Below, one piece after another: positions 7,928 to 20,472 of a DNA stretch of 27,520 bases (within the stretch, counting starts at the first letter, position 1; every line of letters starts with the position of its first letter). The stretch covers positions 1-27,520 of the IMG/VR virus record IMGVR_UViG_3300013137_001607; one strand, given 5' to 3'. The position numbers and the translations under genes are program-made. The notes under the pieces are model-generated. The model worked only from the letters and a program-made list of their open reading frames with translations. It was not told the DNA's origin and made no database searches. This DNA is from a virus.

Positions 7928-9028
7928 TTAAACTCCTTTTATTTGAGTGAACCATGAAGAATCCTGTAAAGTTCCTTCCCATGAAACCATAAGAGGTACA
8001 ATAATCCAATCCCAATCTTCTCTAATTTGTACAGTGGCAATTTTAGTAGCCATTTCTTTTAAATCTTCTTTTTCAGAAGGATCACAATCGAAAACCAAGT
8101 TGTCATGAATCTGCCCGATGATCTTGGATTTAGCACCAAGATCAAGCAATTTATTATGGCAATGAATTAATGAATACAGTAAACAATGAAACGCAGGTCC
8201 TTGAATCGGACTGTTTGCAATCTTGTTGCGAGACATATATCCTTGGCATCGAAAGCCAGTAACAAGCTCAATATATCCATACTTCATATAGAAAGCTATC
8301 ATCCTATCTTGCCATTGTTTTACTTTATTAAATCGTCTCCAAAACTTAGTCTCAACTTTCTTTACATGATCTTCAAAGCCTTGATAATCAATTCTATCTC
8401 CGCAGACTCCAACATCAATTAAATGATCGATTGTATCGATACCGTCTTTTGTTTTAAGATTTTCTTTGTGCATAATTTCCCAAAGATTTCTTGCACAGCT
8501 TTTATAATAGCTGTTGTAAATCTCAGGGAATACAAAACCATTTTTTGCATAAAATCTAAGAGAATCCGATACATTGTCTTTCTTCAAAACAAAGAGTTCC
8601 GTCGCTTGATCTCTATGCATATCTTTTGTAGGATCTGCACAATATTTTATCAGCTCTGGATCCTGACTTATACAAGCACATATTGACACTTCGAGGGCTT
8701 TGTAATCAAAGCCTAAGATGATGTTTCCTTTACTTGGAAAGATACCAGATCGTGTGTATTTTTTTGCATCTTCATCTCTCACAGGTACATTCTGCCAATT
8801 AGGAGAGGAACTGGAAGAACGTCCCGTATCTGCTTTATGAAGATCAAAGAATGGTCTCATTTTTCCTGTTTGATCGATTTCTCGTAAAAACTGACCAATG
8901 TACGTCCCTTTCACTTTATCAAGTTTGTTTGCTGCAACAAGTTTTTTTGTCAGAGGAATATTTATTGTGTTGAGCACTTCGGCATCAACAGATTTGATAC
9001 CTGAATCAGTTGTTTTCTCTGACTTCAA
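7928..9028 (-). CDS. DNA polymerase I-like polymerase domain (C-terminal part of frameshifted gene)
   Basis: This frame encodes the family A palm-fingers module: TGRSSSSSPNWQNVPV (about 68-83), motif A ILGFDYKALEVS (catalytic D108), an O-helix/motif B variant LRFYAKNGFVFPEI, and motif C IGQIHDNLVFD (H308, D309). Motif C has Asn where Pol I has Glu. No ATG or ribosome binding site starts it. The open frame begins at a TTG with coding-like sequence extending upstream (SLFDILKLK). That extension joins the preceding frame by one -1 shift near 9050, giving a UDG-exonuclease-polymerase protein of about 880 aa over 7928-10569. It is probably the 3' part of one gene rather than a separate cistron. 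Confidence 0.85.
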   Translation of the reverse strand: MKSEKTTDSGIKSVDAEVLNTINIPLTKKLVAANKLDKVKGTYIGQFLREIDQTGKMRPFFDLHKADTGRSSSSSPNWQNVPVRDEDAKKYTRSGIFPSKGNIILGFDYKALEVSICACISQDPELIKYCADPTKDMHRDQATELFVLKKDNVSDSLRFYAKNGFVFPEIYNSYYKSCARNLWEIMHKENLKTKDGIDTIDHLIDVGVCGDRIDYQGFEDHVKKVETKFWRRFNKVKQWQDRMIAFYMKYGYIELVTGFRCQGYMSRNKIANSPIQGPAFHCLLYSLIHCHNKLLDLGAKSKIIGQIHDNLVFDCDPSEKEDLKEMATKIATVQIREDWDWIIVPLMVSWEGTLQDSSWFTQIKGV

Positions 9029-9030
9029 TT

Positions 9031-10569
9031 TCAGTATATCAAATAAAGAATTCTCATGTCATGGTCAGATGTAAAATTTATATCTCTGCCCATTTCTTTT
9101 TTGAATAGTTTTGCTTCGTCCGATGAATGAAGTTCTTTAAACAGATTAATGATCTTCTGTTCAAGTTCATTATTTGTCTGTTGGTAAAATTCTTTGCTTG
9201 CACATATTCCATTCATTTGTATATCAGCAAGAGCATCAAGTCCTTGATTGAACAAAGTCATTACTTTAAGTTGATTCTCTGACATTTCTTTTCGTTGTTC
9301 ATGATAGAGTTTTAATGTCAGCAAAGCATCGATGCCATTGTACAGCAATAATTTATCAAGAGGAGCCTCTTCTATCATGTTAAATTCAGAACCATTCTTT
9401 GAGCGAATGAACGACCTCATTTCTTTGTCGTAATCCTCAATACCCCAACGAATAAATGATTGAAACTTTAATCCTGAGAACGATGCACGATTGTCAAGAA
9501 TATGAGAGGCATTCATTGTACACCAATGCCAGTTGTAAGGCTTCGTGTTAAGAATCTGCTGACTCCACACGTCTTCGAACTTTAGGTTTTGTGCCACTTT
9601 CTTTGCATCATTTACAAGAATCTGATTCCACAAATTACAAAGTATTTGCCATTGATCTTTATTAAATGATATATGTTGAAGAGGAAATGAATATGCAACA
9701 TCTTTGGAATCGCAATAACTCACCGACACAATCTTATGACCTTTATTGAACGGTTTAAGTCCTGTCGTCTCATAATCAAAAGAAAATATTTCGGGAGGAT
9801 TATGAATAATATCTTGCAGAACAGAACGGGCATGATTGAACGATGTCAAGCATTCGACTTTATCATATGGATTAAAGAACGTTGGTAACGGTTTTTTGAG
9901 ACATTGTATAGCAAAGCGTATGTCACGCTCGTATTGAGAAATTGTCAGATCGTCGTACTCATTTCTCATCGCATAGCTTGGATGAAACATAGGAATGACC
10001 CAAGCATTGACAGTAGGATCAGGAATACAAAGCCCTCGCCAACGAGTAGGAGTCAGATCAGTTCCACTGTCATCAGAAAATCGTCCAGAATAAAATGACT
10101 CTATTGCAGACTTCCCCATCAGCCAAATAAACTTTGGTTTTTCTTTCTCTATAAATTTGAGATAGTGATTTCTGCATAACTGCAATTCTTTCTTTGTTGG
10201 TGCTCTGTTCTTTTCGGATTGTGCTGTTTCAGTAAATGGACGACATCGTACAGCATTTGTTTTCCAACAATCTTCATCAAGATCAATCCCGAGGGGGTTA
10301 AGTTTGCTACGAAAAAATTCACCAGCAGACCCTGTAAGTTGTTTATTTTTTTCATCTTCTGTTTTTCCAGGAGCTTCCGCAATGATAAGAATATTCTTTT
10401 TTCCTTTTCCTGTAATTTCCATTTTAGGAGATTTGGCAAATTTGAATAATCCACATTGATTACAATTTTTATCTTCACTTTGAATTTTTGTAAGTACAAA
10501 TTCATCAGGATTAAAAAAAGAACGCATTGTTCCTTTTTTTCGTGCTTCATCAAATATTTTTGTATTCAT
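9031..10569 (-). CDS. Uracil-DNA glycosylase (family 4-like) fused to polymerase I 3'-5' exonuclease domain
   Basis: The N-terminal ~225 residues resemble family 4 iron-sulfur uracil-DNA glycosylases. Cys ligand candidates are C36, C39, C109 and C132, motif 1 is LIIAEAPGKTEDE and motif 2 is MFHPSYAMRN. From about residue 255 comes a DnaQ/Pol I-type proofreading exonuclease: Exo I FSFDYETTG (D265, E267), Exo II NLKFEDVWSQ and Exo III LLYNGIDALL. Polymerase thumb-like helices then lead to FTSDHDMR, where the frame breaks and a TGA follows. The polymerase domain continues in the -1 frame (7928-9028). AGGATAATT precedes the ATG at 10569. The fusion suggests uracil excision coupled to synthesis. 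Confidence 0.88.
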   Translation of the reverse strand: MNTKIFDEARKKGTMRSFFNPDEFVLTKIQSEDKNCNQCGLFKFAKSPKMEITGKGKKNILIIAEAPGKTEDEKNKQLTGSAGEFFRSKLNPLGIDLDEDCWKTNAVRCRPFTETAQSEKNRAPTKKELQLCRNHYLKFIEKEKPKFIWLMGKSAIESFYSGRFSDDSGTDLTPTRWRGLCIPDPTVNAWVIPMFHPSYAMRNEYDDLTISQYERDIRFAIQCLKKPLPTFFNPYDKVECLTSFNHARSVLQDIIHNPPEIFSFDYETTGLKPFNKGHKIVSVSYCDSKDVAYSFPLQHISFNKDQWQILCNLWNQILVNDAKKVAQNLKFEDVWSQQILNTKPYNWHWCTMNASHILDNRASFSGLKFQSFIRWGIEDYDKEMRSFIRSKNGSEFNMIEEAPLDKLLLYNGIDALLTLKLYHEQRKEMSENQLKVMTLFNQGLDALADIQMNGICASKEFYQQTNNELEQKIINLFKELHSSDEAKLFKKEMGRDINFTSDHDMRILYLIY

Positions 10570-10571
10570 AA

Positions 10572-10994
10572 TTATCCTATAACACTCTGACGTTCAGCAT
10601 TACCTAAATATTTATCTTTAAATTTTTTTGATCCAAACCCAAATCCTGTTAATAATCCTTTTCCTTCAATGGATAACATTTTATCAACCCATTGTTTAGC
10701 TATATCGTCTTTTCTTTTTGAATAGGAAAGAAATTTTTTCATTTTTTCAAAACTTAAATTCATTTGGGTTAATGATTTTTTATCTGATTTTTCATATGCA
10801 TATTCTTCGTTTATATTTTCAATAAATTCTTTGATAAGATCAATCGCTTCCAGCATATTATTTCGTAAAGTTTCAAGAGAGGTATATTTATAATGAAGTA
10901 AAATACTTACCATAACCTGAATAATTACTTCATTTACATTTTTATACTTTTCAACATGATTATTAATATGAAGTTCAATTATTATAGGTTTCAT
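10572..10994 (-). CDS. Unknown phage protein between sliding clamp and polymerase
   Basis: The 140-aa protein begins with short strands (MKPIIIELHINNHVEKY), then runs of charged helix (NNMLEAIDLIKEFIENINEE and SFEKMKKFLSYSKRKD). It ends in a glycine/lysine-rich segment LLTGFGFGSKKFKDKYLGNA. No Cys, catalytic motif or membrane span was seen. The ATG overlaps the clamp gene TGA (ATGA) with GAGAGGACAA upstream, and the stop lies only 2 bp before the polymerase start, so it is co-translated with both. Its place suggests a small replication accessory factor, but no family was recognised. Confidence 0.6.
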   Translation of the reverse strand: MKPIIIELHINNHVEKYKNVNEVIIQVMVSILLHYKYTSLETLRNNMLEAIDLIKEFIENINEEYAYEKSDKKSLTQMNLSFEKMKKFLSYSKRKDDIAKQWVDKMLSIEGKGLLTGFGFGSKKFKDKYLGNAERQSVIG

Positions 10995-12049
10995 TTGTCC
11001 TCTCTCAAATCAACAAGAGCGATTCCATGCTGAAATTTATTACGCGAAAACATTGCTTTGTCAGGAAATTCTTCCCCAATCACGAGAAACATTTTTGTGG
11101 CTTGATTTAATATTTGTGAAAAGAAAATAGGATTGACTCTGAACTCAATCTCCTTATCATCATAATCTTCAAAATCAATACTTTTGACAAGCCATCCTTT
11201 TTCTTTCTCACTGCGGCAACTAATAATTCCTTTTTTAATTGTAATTTGTACAGATTGAGATATAGCACTTTCAGAAGAAGTCATAACAATTGCATTCTTC
11301 ATAATCTCTTGAAGCTGAACAGGTACATCAAATGCATCTTCACGATCATAGAAGAATCGATTGATAATATATGGGAAATCACCATTCAGTGTTGTACAAC
11401 TAAACACAGCATCATCTTCCGTACGAAAATGAATCCATCCCTCTCCTGTTCCATATCGATTTATTTTGTAATTTACAAGATCAAATGCGCTGGCGTTTGG
11501 AATTAATAACTCCTCATCTATTGCGGAACTCATTGTAAAGCGGCTGATTCGTGATTCATCAGTTGAATAAACAGTATCTCCTTTTATAGCAACACAAGTA
11601 TATGCTTTCTTTGCAGCGTTCTTACTGGTGCTGAACATACAAAGAGAAACGCCTTCGATGAAATCAACAGGTAATCTCTTCCAGAATCCTTTCTTATTCA
11701 CTCGTTTTTGAATGATTTCGATACGATCGATAACCCTTTCACTCTCAACAATGATCGTTGATAACCCTGCCTTTGTATGTTTACTATTGATAAGAAGCTT
11801 ATCTTTCTTTAAAGACAATTCGATTTCTTCTTCATTAATCCCTTCAAGAATTTTATATAACTCTTCTCCGTCTACTGAGCATTGAAAATCGGTTTCAAAA
11901 GGTACAATAACACAAATCTCATCATTGAACGTTGCAACATCAGTTCCTGTGAAAATAAATCGCACAGCTTCAGCAAGAAATTCTTTTCTTGCAAGACCTG
12001 GTTTTGCTGCTCGTAACACTGAAAATACTTCGCTTTTATTTACTTTCAT
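10991..12049 (-). CDS. DNA sliding clamp (DnaN/beta-clamp-like)
   Basis: The ~352-aa protein has the size and texture of a bacterial beta clamp. Repeated strand-rich domains include KLLINSKHTKAGLSTI, AYTCVAIKGDTVYSTDESRI (the beta-clamp 'VATDGHRLA'-like strand) and FSCTTLNGDFPYIINRFF (cf. the 'GxFPdy..lip' motif). A C-terminal strand set (EIEFRVNPIFFSQILNQAT) follows. It should encircle DNA and tether the phage polymerase, loaded by the AAA+ protein at 6985-7926. Two ATGs are adjacent; the second (12049) is better spaced from AAGGAGG, so it is chosen. Sequence is divergent from host-type DnaN, so the call rests on pattern plus replisome context. Confidence 0.85.
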   Translation of the reverse strand: MKVNKSEVFSVLRAAKPGLARKEFLAEAVRFIFTGTDVATFNDEICVIVPFETDFQCSVDGEELYKILEGINEEEIELSLKKDKLLINSKHTKAGLSTIIVESERVIDRIEIIQKRVNKKGFWKRLPVDFIEGVSLCMFSTSKNAAKKAYTCVAIKGDTVYSTDESRISRFTMSSAIDEELLIPNASAFDLVNYKINRYGTGEGWIHFRTEDDAVFSCTTLNGDFPYIINRFFYDREDAFDVPVQLQEIMKNAIVMTSSESAISQSVQITIKKGIISCRSEKEKGWLVKSIDFEDYDDKEIEFRVNPIFFSQILNQATKMFLVIGEEFPDKAMFSRNKFQHGIALVDLREDK

Positions 12050-12058
12050 CATTCCTCC

Positions 12059-12865: not shown

Positions 12866-13213
12866 TTAAATCTCCACAATTGCACTATTTTCACCGTCTT
12901 CACTTACTTCAACAGAAACGTCTCGTTTAATCCCATATTGTTTTTCAATATAAGCAATAAAATCTTCACACATCATTTCACATGATTTATTTCCAAGATC
13001 AAAATCGTACATCTTTGTAGTTGCAGCTTGTAAAGAATGTTTTACAAGAAAAAATTCAAGCTGTCTGTCGTTATGATTAACAGGTATCTTTGCTGTGACA
13101 TGAAACATGTGACGATGTGGTTTTCGAAGAAAACCTACATCTTCAGGTGCATCAGCCCATCGATGTTGTCCTTCAAATTGCCATGAAATTTTAATAAATG
13201 TTTTCATTCTCAT
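12866..13213 (-). CDS. QueD/PTPS-fold protein lacking the catalytic Cys (possible 7-deazaguanine-modifying enzyme)
   Basis: The 115-aa protein has the PTPS/QueD zinc triad pattern, H17 followed by H33-x-H35 (FLRKPHRHMFHV), plus a Ser/Glu-rich C-terminal strand VEVSEDGENSA in the place of the QueD ETxxxxA segment. The catalytic Cys that precedes HGH by four residues in true QueD is a Leu here (L29), so 6-carboxytetrahydropterin synthesis is unlikely. It directly follows the DpdA-like gene with an ATGA overlap and a GGAGG ribosome binding site. QueD paralogs are known in phage deazaguanine clusters. A role on the 7-deazaguanine base, such as decarboxylation of 7-carboxy-7-deazaguanine, is my inference. 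The canonical QueD is separate at 17843-18220. Confidence 0.75.
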   Translation of the reverse strand: MRMKTFIKISWQFEGQHRWADAPEDVGFLRKPHRHMFHVTAKIPVNHNDRQLEFFLVKHSLQAATTKMYDFDLGNKSCEMMCEDFIAYIEKQYGIKRDVSVEVSEDGENSAIVEI

Positions 13214-14169
13214 ATTAATCCTCCTATTTGAAATTTAGTAGAACGTTCTTTTTTTGTCCATCGTCTTGGCCATTTAGGTAAGTTGGATTCAAGATCAAGG
13301 TAATACTGTAAATTTGCTTGATCGCGCATATCAATATTATTACAAACACCAAGTTCTTTAATTATTTCATTACCTGTATGTCTGAAATTAGTAATCGGAA
13401 ATTGAGGATAACCTATTTTATCGTGAGTAACAATACCTTCTTCAGTTTCAAGATCAGAACTTCCTATTTTCAATCCAATACTTTCAAGATATGTTTCTAC
13501 ATATCGTTTTTGTTCTTTGGACAGATTAACAAAATTTTCAGCATTTTCTTTTGCTTTCAATCGTGTTGATACTGAATAAATATTTGGAGAAACATCATAA
13601 CGATATTTTCCGTTTGAATTTTTTACAGGTACAACAATGAGTCCATACTTACCAAATTGCATCCAAGACGTACTATCAACACTTGCCCAAGGATACTGAA
13701 CAATTAAAGAAGGAGATGTCATTGCAAAGCCATGAGTTTTTACTCGTGGATAACCTTTCTCATCACAGATTATTGAAAATGCAGGATCGCCTACACTATG
13801 ACACCACATCGAAGAACTCATTTGTTGACCAAGTCCTCCAATACCTATATATTCATATTGATCAATATATTTTTTAAGCCATTTATAATCTTCACCAGAA
13901 TGAAATACAGGAAGTGGTTTTAAATGATATGTTGATTCAATATATTGTTGTACTTTCCAAGAAAGTTCAGCATTAAAAATAACATCAACATTAACATATG
14001 TATTAAAATTATTAATATTTTTAAGTATAAATAAACAATAGGAATCAACATAATTCCAAAAATCATCTGTTTCATAAAAACTAAAATCTCTCATTCCATT
14101 CTTTGATTTTCTTTCACGAGAATGTTGATTAAACAAAGAATGAGCCCCTGAATCAATCATTAAATTCAT
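13210..14169 (-). CDS. dpdA: DpdA-like DNA guanine transglycosylase (7-deazaguanine insertion)
   Basis: The 319-aa TIM-barrel-like protein is related to tRNA-guanine transglycosylases but matches the phage DpdA pattern. It opens MIDSGAHSLF (D6), then has YVNVDVIFNAE (D62), PVFHSGEDYKWLKKYI, YIGIGGLGQ (about 107-115), KTHGFAMTSPSLI (H146) and WASVDSTSWMQFG, whose D165 is in the position of the TGT/DpdA nucleophile. DpdA enzymes swap guanine in phage DNA for a 7-deazaguanine, protecting against restriction. FolE, QueD and QueE, needed for the precursor, are in the same transcription unit. The ATG at 14169 overlaps the radical-SAM stop (TAATG) behind AGGAG. The subfamily, and hence the preferred base, cannot be told by eye. 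Confidence 0.85.
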   Translation of the reverse strand: MNLMIDSGAHSLFNQHSRERKSKNGMRDFSFYETDDFWNYVDSYCLFILKNINNFNTYVNVDVIFNAELSWKVQQYIESTYHLKPLPVFHSGEDYKWLKKYIDQYEYIGIGGLGQQMSSSMWCHSVGDPAFSIICDEKGYPRVKTHGFAMTSPSLIVQYPWASVDSTSWMQFGKYGLIVVPVKNSNGKYRYDVSPNIYSVSTRLKAKENAENFVNLSKEQKRYVETYLESIGLKIGSSDLETEEGIVTHDKIGYPQFPITNFRHTGNEIIKELGVCNNIDMRDQANLQYYLDLESNLPKWPRRWTKKERSTKFQIGGLI

Positions 14170-15029
14170 TAATAACTCCTAAAACTTTTTGTGAATAATT
14201 CCCAATGTAAAAGAACAGGACTCCTCATGTAACATCGACTACAAATATTTTCATAACATTTGGTTTCATGTTGATAACGTAATTTTTTGACAGCATCTCC
14301 GTTCCAAATTTCTTTAAGTGATTGATTATAAAGATTACCATAAATAATATCATCCCAAAAACTAAAACAACAAGGAACTACATTTCCATTACTTTGTATT
14401 GAACAACTAAGCCAAGGATTCAAACAAATATTTTTTGACACTGAAGATCCTTCATGAGTTATAGTGAGAAAGCAATTTGGAATTGATCGAACATTCATTG
14501 TTGGAAATTTATTATAAAGAAATTTTTTTGTTTCTTTCCAATCAGAATTTTCAAGTTCAATCACTTGCAAATCAATACTTGCATCGGTATTATTTTTAAG
14601 AAGATCAATATTATTCATTAATTTATTAAAGTCACCATTAACACGAATATTTGAATAATTGGACATTGAATCAACACTAATGGTAATATAATCAAGATTA
14701 GATAAAGTTTTTAAATTATTTGTAATTAAACTACCATTTGTACTTAATCCTATTTTAATTCCAGCATACGATTTCAATAATTTAATAATTTCTAAAAGAT
14801 TCGGATGAAGTAAAGGTTCACCAGACATTTGTAATTCAACAAAATATGAACCCCGAAAAGCTCCTTCATCAAGAAGTTTATGTATTAATTTTATATCAAG
14901 AAAGGGTTTCATATCTTTTCTTTTATAAATAGAGCGCGGACACATAATACATTTGAAGTTACATTTACTTGATACTTCAATTTGATAAATCTCAGGAAAT
15001 TCCAGTATAAAAGATGAAGGTAGATTCAT
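14169..15029 (-). CDS. Radical-SAM/SPASM-domain protein in the DNA-modification cluster
   Basis: The 286-aa protein carries the radical SAM motif CNFKCIMC (C23, C27, C30) after EIYQIEVSSK. A GEPLLHP segment (70-76) provides the SAM-binding 'GGEP'-like motif, and STNGS follows. The C-terminal region has SPASM-type cysteines for auxiliary clusters: C202, C209, C220, C221, C258, C263, C266. It should generate a 5'-deoxyadenosyl radical to modify a substrate. SPASM enzymes usually act on peptides or small molecules, and here the neighbours (glycosyltransferase upstream, DpdA downstream, both with overlapping start/stop codons) suggest a nucleobase or sugar. It is distinct from QueE (17157-17846). 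The substrate is unknown. Confidence 0.8.
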   Translation of the reverse strand: MNLPSSFILEFPEIYQIEVSSKCNFKCIMCPRSIYKRKDMKPFLDIKLIHKLLDEGAFRGSYFVELQMSGEPLLHPNLLEIIKLLKSYAGIKIGLSTNGSLITNNLKTLSNLDYITISVDSMSNYSNIRVNGDFNKLMNNIDLLKNNTDASIDLQVIELENSDWKETKKFLYNKFPTMNVRSIPNCFLTITHEGSSVSKNICLNPWLSCSIQSNGNVVPCCFSFWDDIIYGNLYNQSLKEIWNGDAVKKLRYQHETKCYENICSRCYMRSPVLLHWELFTKSFRSY

Positions 15030-16024
15030 ATTATCTCCTCCAACATATTTATAATAGCAGCTTCGCCTTTATTCAGTAAACATTGACGATTAATATTGAA
15101 AGATAAAATAAAATTAGATGTGGCATTCATCAATTGTTCTAATTTTATATATGCATCACTATATGATTGATATCGGAAACAATCATGGTATAATTCATGA
15201 TAAGATAATCTGTCTGGAACAAGAGGCATACAACCAAGGAACATTGCTTCTTGCATTGCTATCCCCCAAGTTTCTTGATCAGCAAATGAAACAGCAATTG
15301 TTGATTGATTTAACAAATCATAGTATTCAGCTTTTGTTTTACAAACATCTTTGGTTTTAATAAATTTCCAATCTGGATATTTTTGAGAAAATTCTTTTGA
15401 AAGATTAAAAAATATTGCAGGATGTTTTTCTTTATCAAGACGATGGGGGAAGATTATAATTTTTTCTTTTTTAACAGGTTTTATATTAATCACTTTAATT
15501 GGAAAACCAGTGACAATAATTTTATTACTATCAATTTTTCTATTTTCTACAATGAGATTCCTGTGAAAATTTGTAGCAACAAATATTTTATCAATGAATT
15601 TAAACCAACTATTCTCAAGATCAGCTCCCCACCTATCCATTCCTTTCTGTGTAAGAAAATCCCAAGGATCATAAGTACCTGCATGTAAACAACCCATAAT
15701 CTTAAAATGCATATTTCTTGCATTACGAATATATGCAAGCATCTCTAAACCAGGAAACCAAAGATCATGAAAGAAAAAAACATCATCATCATTTATTTGT
15801 TTTAAATAAAACATGTTACATATAACAGAAAGTTGTTGTGCTTTATAATAATTTGTACCACACACATCAAGAAAACTACCTTCTGTAATTGTTGAAACAA
15901 GAGAAACGGGATCAATACGAAGAAAGGAAATATTATTTTCTTTATAAGAATCTTCAAACCAATGTCTCCAATCATTACTATATCGATCAGGAAAGCTTTC
16001 TATTGGCACATCAATGATTCTCAT
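15026..16024 (-). CDS. GT-B glycosyltransferase (GT4-like) in the DNA-modification cluster
   Basis: The 332-aa protein has a GT-B outline. The N-terminal half holds HDLWFPGLEMLAYIRNARN and a donor-half linker IIVTGFPIKV. The C-terminal half begins IIIFPHRLDKEKHPAIFF, the usual hinge of GT4 enzymes, and has SFADQETWGIAMQEAMFLGC, which includes the EX7E-like nucleotide-sugar-binding segment (E254 through the EAM Glu). It lies between FolE (ATGA overlap, AAAGGA ribosome binding site) and the radical-SAM gene (ATGA overlap). Phage glycosyltransferases commonly glycosylate modified bases; by context the acceptor may be a 7-deazaguanine or another hypermodified base. Neither donor nor acceptor can be read from sequence. 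Confidence 0.78.
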   Translation of the reverse strand: MRIIDVPIESFPDRYSNDWRHWFEDSYKENNISFLRIDPVSLVSTITEGSFLDVCGTNYYKAQQLSVICNMFYLKQINDDDVFFFHDLWFPGLEMLAYIRNARNMHFKIMGCLHAGTYDPWDFLTQKGMDRWGADLENSWFKFIDKIFVATNFHRNLIVENRKIDSNKIIVTGFPIKVINIKPVKKEKIIIFPHRLDKEKHPAIFFNLSKEFSQKYPDWKFIKTKDVCKTKAEYYDLLNQSTIAVSFADQETWGIAMQEAMFLGCMPLVPDRLSYHELYHDCFRYQSYSDAYIKLEQLMNATSNFILSFNINRQCLLNKGEAAIINMLEEII

Positions 16025-16614
16025 ATTTTTCCTTTATCCAACATTGCAAAATTAATTAAACCCATTGCTTCATCACGAGTTGCTTTATTTTCAGAAAAAG
16101 CACCATACAAAGCAGATGTCACCATTCCAGCATCAGGACCTGTTTTCACTCCACGTAAACTCATACATTGATGAACACCTCTCATTACAAGCATTGCTCC
16201 TTTTGGCTTAATCTTTTCACAAAAATAGTCTAATACATTTTTTGTTAAACGCTCTTGGATTTGAGGTCTTTTACAAAAATAATCAATAAGACGTGCAATT
16301 TTAGAAGCTCCAACAATAAGCTCATTAGGTATGTATAAAAAATGTGCTCGACCACTAAAGAAAACCAAATGATGTTCACAAGTAGAACAAAAAGGTATAT
16401 TATCGAGAAGAATCATTTCATTACAACCTGGATTTTTAAATGATGTTAACTCAGGGGGTTCACTATCTATTGATGCAAACATTTCATTACAAAACATTTT
16501 TGCCATACGTTTTGGTGTATCTTTTATATCAGGATTTTCAAGATCAAATTGAAACGCTTTTTCGAATAAATCCTTTAGAATACTTTCCGTCATTTCCTTT
16601 TTTGAGTTGTTCAT
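16021..16614 (-). CDS. folE: GTP cyclohydrolase I
   Basis: The 197-aa protein is a standard FolE. The zinc site is C79 in STCEHH with H82, and C150 in VHQCMSLRGV. Active-site segments SKIARLIDYFCKRPQIQERLT and SALYGAF are intact, as is the N-terminal NPDIKDTPKRMAKMF helix. It converts GTP to 7,8-dihydroneopterin triphosphate, the first step to folate and to 7-deazaguanines. In this operon it should feed QueD and QueE. The ATG at 16614 has AAAGGAAATTAA upstream and lies 71 nt inside the preceding frame. It is not the related QueF nitrile reductase, since it has the CEHH and RPQxQERLT motifs of FolE. Confidence 0.95.
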   Translation of the reverse strand: MNNSKKEMTESILKDLFEKAFQFDLENPDIKDTPKRMAKMFCNEMFASIDSEPPELTSFKNPGCNEMILLDNIPFCSTCEHHLVFFSGRAHFLYIPNELIVGASKIARLIDYFCKRPQIQERLTKNVLDYFCEKIKPKGAMLVMRGVHQCMSLRGVKTGPDAGMVTSALYGAFSENKATRDEAMGLINFAMLDKGKI

Positions 16615-17116
16615 TTAATTTCCTTTCTTTAACATAATAACAAATTCCTTTGGTTTTCTTTTTTACAGACATAATTTCATATTCAGGAAATTTTTTCCTA
16701 ACATCTTTTATATGATTATCAACACGTTGTTCAGAGGAATTAATTGCACATGCAATTTCAAATCGAGAAAATCCTCCTTTTTTAATCATTTCATCAATAA
16801 TATAGGCTTGAGTTCCTTCTTTATGGCCAAACATACTTAATTGCGTCAATGTTTTAAATGATGCTTCATATCCCCTTCTTGGGCCCTCTGCTTCATCTAA
16901 GAAAATATAATTATATAATTGCTCAATCCAATGTGGAACGCTTTTCAGTTGTTCGTCAGTAAGTGATTCAAGAATAACAGCAATAACATGACATTTTTTT
17001 TCTAATGTTAATCCTATAAAAGCATAATGATCAAATTGTGGAGCATAGCCATATTTACGTAATGTAGCATATGCCTTATTAACATCAAAGTAACAAATAT
17101 ATCGTAAATCTCTCAT
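16544..17116 (-). CDS. Unknown protein with C-terminal winged-helix-like region, between queE and folE
   Basis: The frame is open from a TTG at 17164, but the first ATG is at 17116 (MRDLRYICYFDVNKAYATLR). Neither has a strong ribosome binding site, so the start is uncertain. The product is ~190 aa. Residues around KGGFSRFEIACAINSSEQRV and DNHIKDVRKKFPEYEI look like a winged helix-turn-helix, followed by a basic C-terminus. The N-terminal part (HYAFIGLTLEKKCHVIAVIL) is mixed alpha/beta and unrecognised. The last 71 nt overlap FolE in another frame. Lying inside a deazaguanine operon, it might be a regulator or a DNA-recognition accessory to DpdA. This is conjecture. Confidence 0.6.
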   Translation of the reverse strand: MRDLRYICYFDVNKAYATLRKYGYAPQFDHYAFIGLTLEKKCHVIAVILESLTDEQLKSVPHWIEQLYNYIFLDEAEGPRRGYEASFKTLTQLSMFGHKEGTQAYIIDEMIKKGGFSRFEIACAINSSEQRVDNHIKDVRKKFPEYEIMSVKKKTKGICYYVKERKLNEQLKKGNDGKYSKGFIRKSVSI

Positions 17117-17156
17117 TGTATTGTGACTTTTCTTGAATGAATATGTTGTTGTCTCT

Positions 17157-17846
17157 TTAAACAACTCCTATTAGTTTATGTATCTGCCAACTAAATACAG
17201 CTCCTATTTTTTTTAATTCGGGTTCATTCATCATCCATTGAGTAAGTATCAAAGGATCCATTATATCAAAACTTGGTGAAAACGCAAAAATTGGACACTT
17301 CCGATAAGTAAACCTATTTAGAAGATCATTAATAACATGAACTGCCATATTAAAATCTTCACGATCGGCAACAACAAATTTAATAAAATCAGTAGTGGTT
17401 AAATTTTTAAAATTATTAATATCCATTTTATTATTCATACGAGTAGATGGTAATTTATAATCAGCAACCCAAGAAAATGTATTTCGATAATCAATATTAT
17501 GAAATGAAAAATATGGAATATAAATTGATCCATTTGTTTCATCTGATATATTTTTTCCATTTAATAAAAGTTTTTGTGATAGTTCCATTACTTCATCTAT
17601 CTGAAGTAAAGGTTCTCCTCCTGTAATTGTAATATTTTTAGTATTATTTTTAATAAGTTTATCAAACACCTGTAATACTGACATTTCATGTCGAAGATAA
17701 TTTTTTTCATAACTTTGAGGGGTATCACAATTATTACATCGATTATTACATCCAAAAAGTCTAAGAAAAGTTGTTACACTTCCTTGGTGAGATAAACATA
17801 TTTCACCATTAACACTCATAAAAATTCCATTATCACAAACAATCAT
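17157..17846 (-). CDS. queE: 7-carboxy-7-deazaguanine synthase
   Basis: The ~229-aa radical SAM enzyme has the pattern of QueE: NGIFMSVNGE (cf. FYSIQGEG), TTFLRLFGCNNRCNNCDTPQ (CX3CX2C, C33, C37, C40), and NITITGGEPLLQ for SAM binding. It converts 6-carboxytetrahydropterin to 7-carboxy-7-deazaguanine (CDG), using one 4Fe-4S cluster. The ATG at 17846 is chosen because GGAGAGATTT precedes it and it forms ATGA with the QueD stop; an ATG four codons upstream lacks a ribosome binding site. Middle parts are divergent from host QueE, as is common in phages. QueC, needed to turn CDG into preQ0, is not encoded in the window. Confidence 0.9.
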   Translation of the reverse strand: MIVCDNGIFMSVNGEICLSHQGSVTTFLRLFGCNNRCNNCDTPQSYEKNYLRHEMSVLQVFDKLIKNNTKNITITGGEPLLQIDEVMELSQKLLLNGKNISDETNGSIYIPYFSFHNIDYRNTFSWVADYKLPSTRMNNKMDINNFKNLTTTDFIKFVVADREDFNMAVHVINDLLNRFTYRKCPIFAFSPSFDIMDPLILTQWMMNEPELKKIGAVFSWQIHKLIGVV

Positions 17847-18220
17847 AAATCTCTCCATTCAGCATAACTATCTTCGGTTTCATATAATCGTACACGAGTG
17901 AGACGATACATACCATTATTATTAATGATTGATTTTAAACGTAATGCAAATTCTCCAACCATCAATTCAACAGTTGGATTTTCAAATTGATCATTCAAAT
18001 AAGAATGATCACACTGATTAATAATCAAATCATTTACAATAGTTTTTAACATTGAAAAATCAATAATCATCCCTTGTTCAGGACCGATTTTATTATGAAT
18101 AATTCCTGTGATTTCAACTTCTAAAGAAAAACAATGACCGTGTAAATTTTTACATAAACCTAAATGATTTGGTAATTTATGAGCTGCATCAAAACGAAAC
18201 CGTTTACACACTGAAATCAT
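17843..18220 (-). CDS. queD: 6-carboxytetrahydropterin synthase
   Basis: The 125-aa protein is a canonical QueD/PTPS. Zinc ligands are H14 (FDAAHKLP), H27 and H29 (CKNLHGH), with catalytic C23, the catalytic pair D71-H72 in CDHSYLND, the NPTVE turn (81-85) and the ETEDSYAEW C-terminal motif. It makes 6-carboxy-5,6,7,8-tetrahydropterin from dihydroneopterin triphosphate supplied by FolE and passes it to QueE, whose gene overlaps its stop. GAGGAGG precedes the ATG, which overlaps the HD-hydrolase TGA. All catalytic residues are present, in contrast to the paralog at 12866-13213. Confidence 0.95.
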   Translation of the reverse strand: MISVCKRFRFDAAHKLPNHLGLCKNLHGHCFSLEVEITGIIHNKIGPEQGMIIDFSMLKTIVNDLIINQCDHSYLNDQFENPTVELMVGEFALRLKSIINNNGMYRLTRVRLYETEDSYAEWRDL

Positions 18221-18798
18221 TTGGTAACCTCCTCAATTAAATATGAAGCAGTAAAATCAGCAGCAACAAGTAAAGCAACAAGTTTATTTTCTCTCATTGC
18301 TTGACCAAGTGCAAATCCACTTGGATATTGAAATACAGTACCTGGATCATACGCACCAAGATGCCATCTTATTGCAAGTGCTTCAACATCGGTAAGTTCT
18401 ATGTATTTATTAATCAAGTACACAGATTTTTCTCCATGACCCATCGGGAATTGATCCTTCACAGTCCATACAGGAACTGATTGCCATTGTCCATCTATTT
18501 TTTTATTACGTTGCTCAATCATATAAAAATTCACTTTACAAAAATCATGATACAATGCACAAATTTTAATTGTATCTTCCTCTTTTATATTAAGTTCAAA
18601 TAATTTATATAACTGCATCATCGTGTCATAAACATCAAGACAATGCAAAACAAGTCCATATTTTTCATTCCCATGATATTTTGTTGAAGCAGGTGCTTCA
18701 TAAAAATCTGTTGAATCAAGCCACTTCAATAATTTATCATTGCCTGGTCTTTTAATTGTATTTGCAATTTTTAAAAATTCTTTTCGCCAATCATTCAT
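18217..18798 (-). CDS. HD-domain phosphohydrolase-like protein
   Basis: The ATG at 18798 is preceded by AAAGGAGATTATTAC; an ATG six codons upstream would make the ribosome binding site part of the protein. The product is ~193 aa. HD-superfamily metal ligands appear as LHCLDVYDTM, YHDFCKVNF (the HD dyad), MGHGEKS, IRWHLGAYD and VAADFTASY. Such phage HD proteins are often nucleotidases or nucleoside-triphosphate hydrolases. Here it is translationally coupled (ATGA) to QueD, so it may act on a nucleotide pool linked to base modification, or be unrelated. It is not similar to signalling HD-GYP proteins. The substrate is unknown. Confidence 0.8.
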   Translation of the reverse strand: MNDWRKEFLKIANTIKRPGNDKLLKWLDSTDFYEAPASTKYHGNEKYGLVLHCLDVYDTMMQLYKLFELNIKEEDTIKICALYHDFCKVNFYMIEQRNKKIDGQWQSVPVWTVKDQFPMGHGEKSVYLINKYIELTDVEALAIRWHLGAYDPGTVFQYPSGFALGQAMRENKLVALLVAADFTASYLIEEVTK

Positions 18799-18842
18799 GT
18801 AATAATCTCCTTTCATATTTACTATAACATATCGTTAATTAT

Positions 18843-20369
18843 TTAATGCAGGTCTTTTTGATAACAAATTTCACTATCAATATGAAATTGTCCTGCTCCA
18901 TAATTTGTTAAAATCAAAGCATGTTTTTTTGTATCAAAATCTTCATGTCGATGCCCAAGTATTGACATTCTAATTACTTTTCGTACTTTTTCTTCCGGAG
19001 TTTGACTTAATGCTGAAAATATATCTACATGTGCAAGAAGTCCTATCCATTCAGCCACATCATCCTCTTCTGTATTTGTTTTTTTAATGGCACTTCTTGT
19101 TCCTTGTGATGCAGAAATCAATAAACAATTTCTTTCGGTTGCAACTTGAGCAAGTCGTTTCCACACATGATCAAGTTGAAAACGTTTTTCTTCTTTTAAG
19201 TTCTCTGGTTTAAGAATTGAAGAATAATCAATGATTAAAACATCAGGAATAAACATTTCCTTTTCTTCAAGAAGATTAAGATCATGTTCAATGTCTCCTA
19301 ATGTTGCTGAAAATCTTGGATAGGACAACACTCGTAAATTATCACCGTACATTGTAGTAAATGATCGTACAACTTTTCTACCGGTTTTCTTATTGAGTGT
19401 ATCTAAAGATAACTCTTCAAACCAAGTTGCAAGTTTGTAATTTTTTTTAAGTTCAGGATTCTTTCGACAAACATCACACGGAATATATTTAATATCTTTT
19501 GAATAGAAAGGAATTTTTCCATCTACCAATAAAGCACAATTATTTATTCTAAAAGGAAGTCCACAAGAATCATTCTGATTTAATTTGCAATCAAATACAG
19601 GAGATATACGATCTTCTGGTTTGGAACCAAAAGTTCCAACTCCTTGTAAAAAAGATTCGGCAATTTGAACACCTGACATTTCAAGAGAAACAAACACAAC
19701 TTTTAATCGACATGATGCAGCATAATGGGCCATGTACATCATACTTTTTGTTTTCCCTTTCTTGAAGACACCAAGTATTCCAAGTAAATATCCTCTTCGT
19801 AATGGTCCAAAGATATTTCCCATAGCTCCTGGGAATTTCAATAAAGGTTCTTCTTTTGCGGCAAGAACTTTATCAACATACTCATCTGATAATGGATTGA
19901 ATGCAATACTCTGATCCATTTTAAATTTCTTATACTCAACCATTTCATTTTCAGCATCTTCCAATTTTCCTAAATCAAGATATGCTTGAATCCTATCTGA
20001 CCTCATTTTTAAATTTCTTTGCGTAAAATATTCTTTTGCTTGATTAATAAAATATAAATCATTAATCGGTTCTGTAAAATCAATGTAACGCTTACTAAGT
20101 TTAATAAGAAACTCTGCCACAAGATTAGCATCGGATTTTTCAAGCAAAATTTTTCCGTGATCGTACAAATCCTGTATATGTGATTGAGGAGCTTTATTGT
20201 ATTGATCAAAATAAGTTATACACCATTGACAAATAATTCGTAAACTATCGTTGATAATATATGCAGGATCAAAGAAATCTTTAACAGCTTTAATTGTAAC
20301 ATCCGATACTACAAATCCCATTGCAATGGTTTGTTCGATTGTATTGTCAACTTTTTTTCTTGAAAACAT
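18843..20369 (-). CDS. DnaB-type replicative helicase with Cys-rich insertion
   Basis: The ~508-aa RecA-fold helicase has an N-terminal helical domain, then LLGILGVFKKGKTKSMMYMA (Walker A about 200-209), KVVFVSLEMSG (H1a), the Walker B strand DVLIIDYSSIL and LISASQGTRS, followed by a C-terminal strand with RMSILGHRHEDFD. Between H1a and Walker B is a ~90-residue insertion with Cys in DCKLNQNDSCGLPFRINNC and IPCDVCRKNP, a probable zinc-binding element. It should be the hexameric fork helicase, acting with the primase at 22936-23829. The ATG at 20369 is chosen because AAAGGGATGG lies just upstream; the ATG at 20387 lacks a site. Confidence 0.87.
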   Translation of the reverse strand: MFSRKKVDNTIEQTIAMGFVVSDVTIKAVKDFFDPAYIINDSLRIICQWCITYFDQYNKAPQSHIQDLYDHGKILLEKSDANLVAEFLIKLSKRYIDFTEPINDLYFINQAKEYFTQRNLKMRSDRIQAYLDLGKLEDAENEMVEYKKFKMDQSIAFNPLSDEYVDKVLAAKEEPLLKFPGAMGNIFGPLRRGYLLGILGVFKKGKTKSMMYMAHYAASCRLKVVFVSLEMSGVQIAESFLQGVGTFGSKPEDRISPVFDCKLNQNDSCGLPFRINNCALLVDGKIPFYSKDIKYIPCDVCRKNPELKKNYKLATWFEELSLDTLNKKTGRKVVRSFTTMYGDNLRVLSYPRFSATLGDIEHDLNLLEEKEMFIPDVLIIDYSSILKPENLKEEKRFQLDHVWKRLAQVATERNCLLISASQGTRSAIKKTNTEEDDVAEWIGLLAHVDIFSALSQTPEEKVRKVIRMSILGHRHEDFDTKKHALILTNYGAGQFHIDSEICYQKDLH

Positions 20370-20472
20370 AAATTCCATCCCTTTCATTTCATCATTTTTA
20401 AGCTATTGATAATTTCAAACTGACAACTTTTGCTTGGTTTTGAGAAATGCAGACATGATCTGTACCTATGTT

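Follow-up and report, generated by a model that had tools for sequence, protein, structure and literature searches.

The IMG/VR virus sequence IMGVR_UViG_3300013137_001607, a genome fragment of 27,520 bases that was analysed over its whole length and is called the window here, contains on its minus strand a run of genes which we consider likely to be a cassette for a sugar-bearing 7-deazaguanine in phage DNA. The run encodes, in this order, an HD protein, QueD, QueE, a protein of unknown function, FolE, a glycosyltransferase (GT), a radical SAM/SPASM protein, a DpdA-like transglycosylase and a short QueD-like protein. An earlier, sequence-only reading had placed FolE, QueD, QueE and the DpdA-like protein in one tightly overlapping minus-strand operon. 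Family searches and gene-end overlaps confirm this: from the HD protein to the short QueD-like protein, successive genes overlap by 4, 16, 8, 71, 4, 4, 1 and 4 bases. The gene calls of that reading were also correct, but it left unnamed three genes inside the span (those for the radical SAM/SPASM protein, the GT and the protein at 16544–17164) and the short QueD paralogue at 12866–13213. Because the operon encodes, in addition, a QueD paralogue devoid of the catalytic Cys and a GT related to the tRNA-queuosine mannosyltransferase (QTMAN), we predict a sugar-bearing 7-deazaguanine as the end product. The former proposal, 'dCDG or a product of it', was sound with respect to the pathway leading to 7-carboxy-7-deazaguanine (CDG) but stops too early.

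The glycosyltransferase is a relative of QTMAN

The GT gene is located at positions 15026–16024 (minus strand). The AlphaFold2 model of the protein (pLDDT 95.3) has a GT4-type GT-B fold. Its nearest solved folds are BshA and MshA (Z about 25), with values of Z 25.6 and 3.0 Å over 297 residues for BshA (5d01). GT4 retaining enzymes are characterized by an R...K pair and an E-x7-E motif. R195, K200 and E259 are present in 57 of 57 members of the GT family, and E251 in 55, the other two having Asp at this position. A search of PDB sequences with the single GT gave nothing useful, and a 59-row GT profile retrieved weak GT4 matches only (best match 8xsg, E = 4.8e-5). The solved folds listed for the GT model do not include QTMAN, which excludes nothing.

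QTMAN is the enzyme that mannosylates queuosine in tRNA (PMC12518689). Ten GT-bearing bacterial genomes were searched for QTMAN, which is present in one. A comparison set was assembled from 26 Pfam GT4 matches of three such genomes, one of these matches being QTMAN, and from three phage or bacterial GT4 controls. On this set the phage GT profile scored QTMAN with 67.5 bits and every other protein with at most 12.2 bits; HHalign gave E = 8.6e-17 for QTMAN and E = 2.9e-6 for the runner-up. Fifteen further QTMAN loci were taken from 36 matching genomes (149 searched). The GT profile scored 54–83 bits (E = 7e-15 to 1e-23) in 15 of the 16 QTMAN loci, the sixteenth being a truncated frame of 192 amino acids. 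When the search was reversed, the QTMAN profile ranked the phage GT family first, together with its bacterial relatives, and other GT4 proteins reached no more than 13.2 bits. Alignment of the two families by HHalign covered 304 columns (99.5%, E = 3.4e-22).

On this sequence evidence, the GT is specifically related to QTMAN among the GT4-type proteins tested. The Pfam model QTMAN_N (PF12038) did not match any of 59 GT members scanned at E 0.1, and the GT is thus a relative of QTMAN rather than a member of that family. A role as a generic GT4 enzyme of the lipopolysaccharide type was set aside, as only QTMAN proteins score.

The glycosyltransferase is linked to DpdA and the QueD paralogue

To 138 loci, one of which (L001) is a piece of the window, we added the window itself and annotated them all with local profiles; five loci were dropped because their contigs had been counted before. 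Transglycosylases of the phiST type are labelled DpdA3 here. After removal, there were 92 loci with GT and 34 with DpdA3, and not a single one with both. DpdA is present in 82 of the 92 GT loci, the QueD paralogue in 85, and at least one of FolE, QueD and QueE in 78. Seen from the paralogue, which occurs in 125 loci, 85 have the GT, 34 have DpdA3 and six have neither. The gap between the GT and the nearest DpdA or paralogue gene has a median of –3 bases (85 loci) and is 100 bases or less in 59. The 92 GT loci include near duplicates (L112/L113, L034/L035/L037 and L047/L048/L050).

As a control for bias, the count was restricted to loci that had been retrieved by a search with the paralogue, as opposed to the GT, which gave 80 loci, or 78 without two duplicates. 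The 80 are the best-scoring of at least 566 and hence skewed toward the window's kind. The GT was found in 39 of the 43 loci with a non-DpdA3 transglycosylase versus none of the 32 with DpdA3 (Fisher 3.8e-17). No DpdA was seen in the remaining three of the 78, two of which carry the GT. When whole records were searched, 29 of the DpdA3 type and that of Pseudomonas phage NP1 yielded no member of the GT family, save for one 21-bit fragment.

The three classes of DpdA are interspersed over the GT tree, so that the pairing of GT and DpdA has probably been re-made more than once. Isolates carrying the GT are Acidovorax phage ACP17, Pseudomonas phage PA5oct, Xanthomonas phage X1 and Synechococcus phage BUCT-ZZ01.

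The transglycosylase resembles phage DpdA

The DpdA-like DNA guanine transglycosylase is encoded at 13210–14169 (minus strand). It belongs to phrog_887 (E = 1.3e-39), the family into which DpdA of phage NP1 also falls (E = 3.6e-100). No Pfam match was obtained at E 0.1, hence none to the model of tRNA-guanine transglycosylase (TGT). D6 (in DSGA), D62, H146 and D165 (in VDSTSW) are invariant in all 32 aligned relatives. Since the family is shared with NP1 DpdA, the Pfam TGT match is missing and the catalytic Asp is kept, the protein does not look like a tRNA-type enzyme. The sequence-only reading had named grouping with tRNA-type TGT, or loss of the catalytic Asp, as findings that would speak against it; as far as sequence tells, the protein shows neither.

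One DpdA relative (L004, 1–2097) bears an intein-like insert immediately after the last conserved Asp. Elements of this kind choose conserved sites.

Synthesis up to CDG

FolE, QueD and QueE convert GTP to CDG in an established pathway. FolE (GTP cyclohydrolase I; 16021–16614, minus strand) was identified by PF01227 (E = 2.8e-50) and phrog_2197 (E = 1.5e-51). QueD (6-carboxytetrahydropterin synthase; 17843–18220, minus strand) has the C-x3-HGH motif and matches PF01242 (E = 1.8e-28) and, slightly below the cut-off, NCBIfam TIGR03367 (E = 1.3e-23); its closest PDB relatives are 2oba and 4ntm (E about 1e-12). QueE (CDG synthase, a radical SAM enzyme; 17157–17858, minus strand) matches the QueE-like phrog_2076 (E = 9.1e-28) and, both under the curated cut-offs, TIGR03963 and TIGR04349 (E = 3.2e-41 and 2.8e-33).

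Neither QueC nor QueF was found over the cut-off in the 27.5-kb record, which is a fragment. In a survey of 51 of the approximately 92 GT-bearing records, QueC exceeded the cut-off in one, and QueF likewise in one. There is thus good support for a phage pathway of 7-deazaguanine DNA modification that leads as far as CDG and apparently does without QueC and QueF, as the sequence-only reading had described it.

Some cassettes show variations of these genes. In L002 (5902–7293), QueE is fused in one open frame behind a domain that, judged by eye, looks like the LAGLIDADG type. A phosphoribosyltransferase gene is located near FolE in many cassettes (its cluster occurs in 24 loci), and the FolE of L003 (7357–8289) has an extra N-terminal part resembling a phosphoribosyltransferase. 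A salvage or base-release step is a possible role for this enzyme.

A QueD paralogue without the catalytic cysteine

The short protein encoded at 12866–13213 (minus strand; phrog_17812) has a second QueD fold. Its AlphaFold2 model (pLDDT 95.5) was submitted to fold searches, Foldseek among them, and the closest solved fold is Escherichia coli QueD (Z 13.9, 2.0 Å over 110 residues). HHalign against the phage QueD profile gave 94.9% and E = 4.7e-8. A search of PDB sequences with the paralogue profile gave only weak bacterioferritin matches and one match to AFV3-109; it is therefore the structure search that settles the QueD fold. The zinc triad H17/H33/H35 and E105 are each kept in 60 of 60 relatives. 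In QueD, the catalytic Cys is situated four residues ahead of the HxH pair. In all 60 relatives it is replaced by Leu (Leu29), which makes the protein a paralogue by fold and not a QueD enzyme.

The paralogue is widespread, with at least 566 relatives in IMG/VR and 27 phage records. In Cellulophaga phage phiST and in Acidovorax phage ACP17 it is situated among FolE, QueD and QueE. It probably acts on CDG, and the chances are about even that it removes the carboxylate to yield 7-deazaguanine. Cui 2023 is reported to have detected dCDG and dDG in the DNA of phages and to have postulated DpdL as an enzyme that decarboxylates CDG. The paralogue may possibly be this DpdL, whose role would fit; the name was not found in the literature searched, the scope of which did not include Cui 2023.

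Sugar supply and radical SAM proteins

In five loci (L039, L040, L042, L043 and L051), genes for a GmhA-like protein (E = 1e-54), an HddC-like protein with a GmhB-like domain (E = 2e-40 and 2e-34) and an HddA-like protein (E = 4e-34) are located between GT and FolE. One example of each was scanned, and the scores are under the curated cut-offs. The set would correspond to a route to GDP-D-glycero-D-manno-heptose, and a donor of the manno type would suit a QTMAN relative. The GTs of the five loci are 61–69% identical, so that these are not copies of one genome. With five GT loci versus no DpdA3 locus, the numbers are too few for a statistic, and the case rests on gene position.

The radical SAM/SPASM (twitch) protein beside the GT (14169–15029, minus strand) matches PF04055 (E = 2.8e-17) and PF13186 (E = 3.1e-15). 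Its best PDB match is BtrN (E = 2.6e-12), which we take to be a dehydrogenase acting on an aminocyclitol, followed by 7wzv (E = 5e-5) and cytosylglucuronate decarboxylase (E = 3e-4). Close relatives (phmmer E of 5e-40 or lower) were found in only four other GT loci (L011, L012, L013 and L026). A profile count of seven SPASM loci was reduced by L003 and L025, which score only about 5e-6. In nine other GT loci, the place between the paralogue and the GT is taken by a different radical SAM protein of 450 residues, which never occurs together with the SPASM protein. A B12 label is not claimed for it, as its NCBIfam matches to such models are weak.

In Xanthomonas phage PhiXhv-12 (L138, 6627–9861), a distant GT is encoded in one row with GAT-QueC and a PIG-L deacetylase (E = 3.5e-7), which suggests an amino sugar on an amido-deazaguanine. 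BshA and MshA, too, work with a deacetylase.

Related loci in bacteria

A scan of bacterial and archaeal genomes revealed 19 GT loci, with a DpdA-like gene nearby in 18 and the paralogue in 13. Five alphaproteobacterial loci, from Azospirillum, Pelagibacterium, Shimia and two Sulfitobacter, combine the GT and a DpdA-like protein with a Vut_1-type membrane protein. The five Vut_1-type proteins are close relatives of each other, and no FolE, QueD, QueE or paralogue was found in the locus sequence examined. The Pfam family Vut_1 presumably includes YhhQ. YhhQ is involved in preQ0 transport (PMC5372724). These loci look like a salvage form of the system, which would tie the GT to a 7-deazaguanine even without the rest of the pathway. 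On Magnetospirillum contigs (L143–L146 and L152), GT, paralogue, DpdA-like protein and QueD occur together; this set is perhaps a cellular modification island or a prophage.

Further genes of the window

The run is flanked by genes for a DnaB-like helicase (18843–20387) and a sliding clamp (10991–12052). The protein of unknown function encoded between QueE and FolE (16544–17164, minus strand) has a TTG start in the list of open reading frames and an ATG 16 codons further in. It has no match in Pfam, PHROGs or NCBIfam. Relatives exist across nine contigs, including that of the window; the one in L002 is 41% identical, and the position between QueE and FolE is kept in L002 and L023. The protein may be a regulator or an enzyme of the pathway. 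The HD-domain phosphohydrolase-like protein (18217–18816, minus strand; PF01966, E = 3.1e-5; phrog_28876, E = 2.3e-40) may be co-transcribed with QueD, as judged from the 4-base overlap. Elsewhere, relatives were found only on the contig of L002 and L031.

The DNA polymerase gene of the window (7928–10569, minus strand) is broken by a frame change near 9043, and both halves fit a single 869-residue frame of L002. A sequencing error, a pseudogene and a programmed shift are all compatible with this.

Proposed pathway and alternative explanations

In the pathway that we propose, FolE, QueD and QueE would convert GTP to CDG. The Cys-less paralogue would act on CDG or on the preceding pterin, decarboxylation to 7-deazaguanine being the most likely reaction, at about even odds. 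Family and catalytic residues indicate that DpdA would then swap chosen guanines of phage DNA for the modified base. The QTMAN-related GT, in view of its specific homology and strict linkage, would move a sugar, perhaps of the manno type, from a nucleotide sugar onto the inserted base. More tentatively, the radical SAM/SPASM protein of the window might oxidize or rearrange the sugar or ready the attachment point. DNA modified in this way should be shielded from host nucleases, as with simpler 7-deazaguanines.

Several points weigh against this pathway. What is proposed for the sugar, for the atom to which it is attached and for the base itself is a prediction. Decarboxylation of CDG would leave neither O nor N at C7 to accept a sugar, so that the sugar would have to be bound to carbon or at some other position. 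Besides a C-glycoside, an ester between the sugar and CDG is conceivable, as is a handle provided by the radical SAM protein. If the paralogue does decarboxylate, a C–C link at C7 could give a C-glycosylated DNA base. The acceptor of QTMAN is the cyclopentenediol, which the pathway of the window cannot make. No sugar-donor gene was seen in the window itself. The heptose genes occur in just five of the 92 GT loci, all of one GT clade, and other sugar genes are not enriched (epimerase in nine GT versus three DpdA3 loci, cytidylyltransferase in 11 versus four, among 92 and 34 loci). The linkage has exceptions as well: among the paralogue-fetched loci, the GT is missing from four of the 43 with a non-DpdA3 transglycosylase (L059, L091, L095 and L127), and no DpdA was seen in 10 of the 92 GT loci; several of these contigs are short, but not those of L134 and L138. 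L102 and L138 are on very long branches of the GT tree and may not be true members. For the salvage-type loci, the Vut_1 Pfam cut-off is passed in Azospirillum alone (31.9 versus 27.2 bits), the other four just missing it.

The strongest competing explanation is a plain 7-deazaguanine system with dCDG or 7-deazaguanine as the only product, in which GT and radical SAM protein serve lipopolysaccharide, a virion protein or a metabolite. Its components, the full de novo genes up to CDG and DpdA, are present, and the 34 loci that pair the paralogue with DpdA3 without any GT imply that the paralogue pathway can do without a sugar; dCDG and dDG in phage DNA, which Cui 2023 is said to describe, are in line with it. 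We nevertheless regard it as unlikely, since dissimilar phages and bacteria alike have the GT beside DpdA or the paralogue, in combination with three DpdA classes, and its homology is specific to the queuosine glycosyltransferase and not to other GT4 enzymes.

Modification of RNA, with the DpdA-like protein and the GT acting on host or phage tRNA, would accord with the fact that QTMAN and TGT are tRNA enzymes and that the GT family is related to QTMAN. We consider it very improbable. DpdA proteins are known to modify DNA (PMC6884629), and it is with phage DpdA (phrog_887, NP1) that the transglycosylase is grouped; the TGT model of Pfam does not match it. With no QueC or QueF over the cut-off, these genes could not yield queuosine.

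Least probable of all, and hardly to be expected, is a GT whose acceptor is another base, for instance the hydroxymethylpyrimidine known from T4, with two modifications merely travelling together. The thymidylate-synthase family, which includes dCMP hydroxymethylase, is represented in 15 of the 51 GT records but was not found in the other 36, which include the complete records of ACP17, X1 and BUCT-ZZ01; a hydroxymethylpyrimidine acceptor is therefore unlikely. T4-like phage DNA glycosyltransferases do act on hydroxymethylcytosine (PMC13390438), whereas the substrate of the GT's relative is a 7-deazaguanine base, and DpdA is the linked partner.

For the wider picture we are somewhat less confident than for the cassette of the window, but on balance we favour that phages and some bacterial mobile elements carry glycosylated 7-deazaguanine DNA as a counterpart of mannosyl-queuosine, with some lineages making GDP-heptose and some tailoring via radical SAM proteins. 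If so, this would be a type of DNA base undescribed in the literature searched, joining the chemistries of 7-deazaguanine DNA and queuosine glycosylation. It would also give a function to a family annotated as 'hypothetical protein' or 'glycosyltransferase' in PA5oct, ACP17 and X1. Bulky sugars on guanine should affect restriction, CRISPR targeting and sequencing of these phages.

Comparison with known systems

Sugar-bearing 7-deazaguanine DNA is not reported in the literature searched, the scope of which did not extend to subscription papers or Cui 2023. The accessible parts of four papers from 2025–2026 (PMC12783734, PMC13329287, PMC13390438 and PMC13216743) treat 7-deazaguanines only generally or in the context of tRNA and preQ0.

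With the phage DpdA systems (Hutinet 2019, PMC6884629) the window has in common FolE, QueD, QueE and a DpdA with conserved Asp, as well as, by prediction, base exchange in DNA after replication. The operon of the window differs from them by the lack of QueC and QueF and by the additional Cys-less paralogue, QTMAN-related GT and SPASM radical SAM protein. Phage NP1, for comparison, is of the GAT-QueC type. The T4-type glucosyltransferases share the idea of a sugar on a modified phage DNA base; their base, hydroxymethylcytosine, is different. MshA and BshA, the GT4 enzymes of mycothiol and bacillithiol synthesis, are only 11–15% identical to the GT, and the resemblance indicates a fold class, not a function.

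QTMAN is the closest family found for the GT, and it acts on a 7-deazaguanine-derived base within a nucleic acid (PMC12518689). The GT of the window adjoins DpdA, in contrast, and not TGT. A direct parallel may be drawn between TGT and QTMAN acting on tRNA and DpdA and the phage GT, as proposed, acting on DNA. It would suggest side-by-side evolution of tRNA- and DNA-modifying enzymes, TGT with DpdA and QTMAN with the phage GT.

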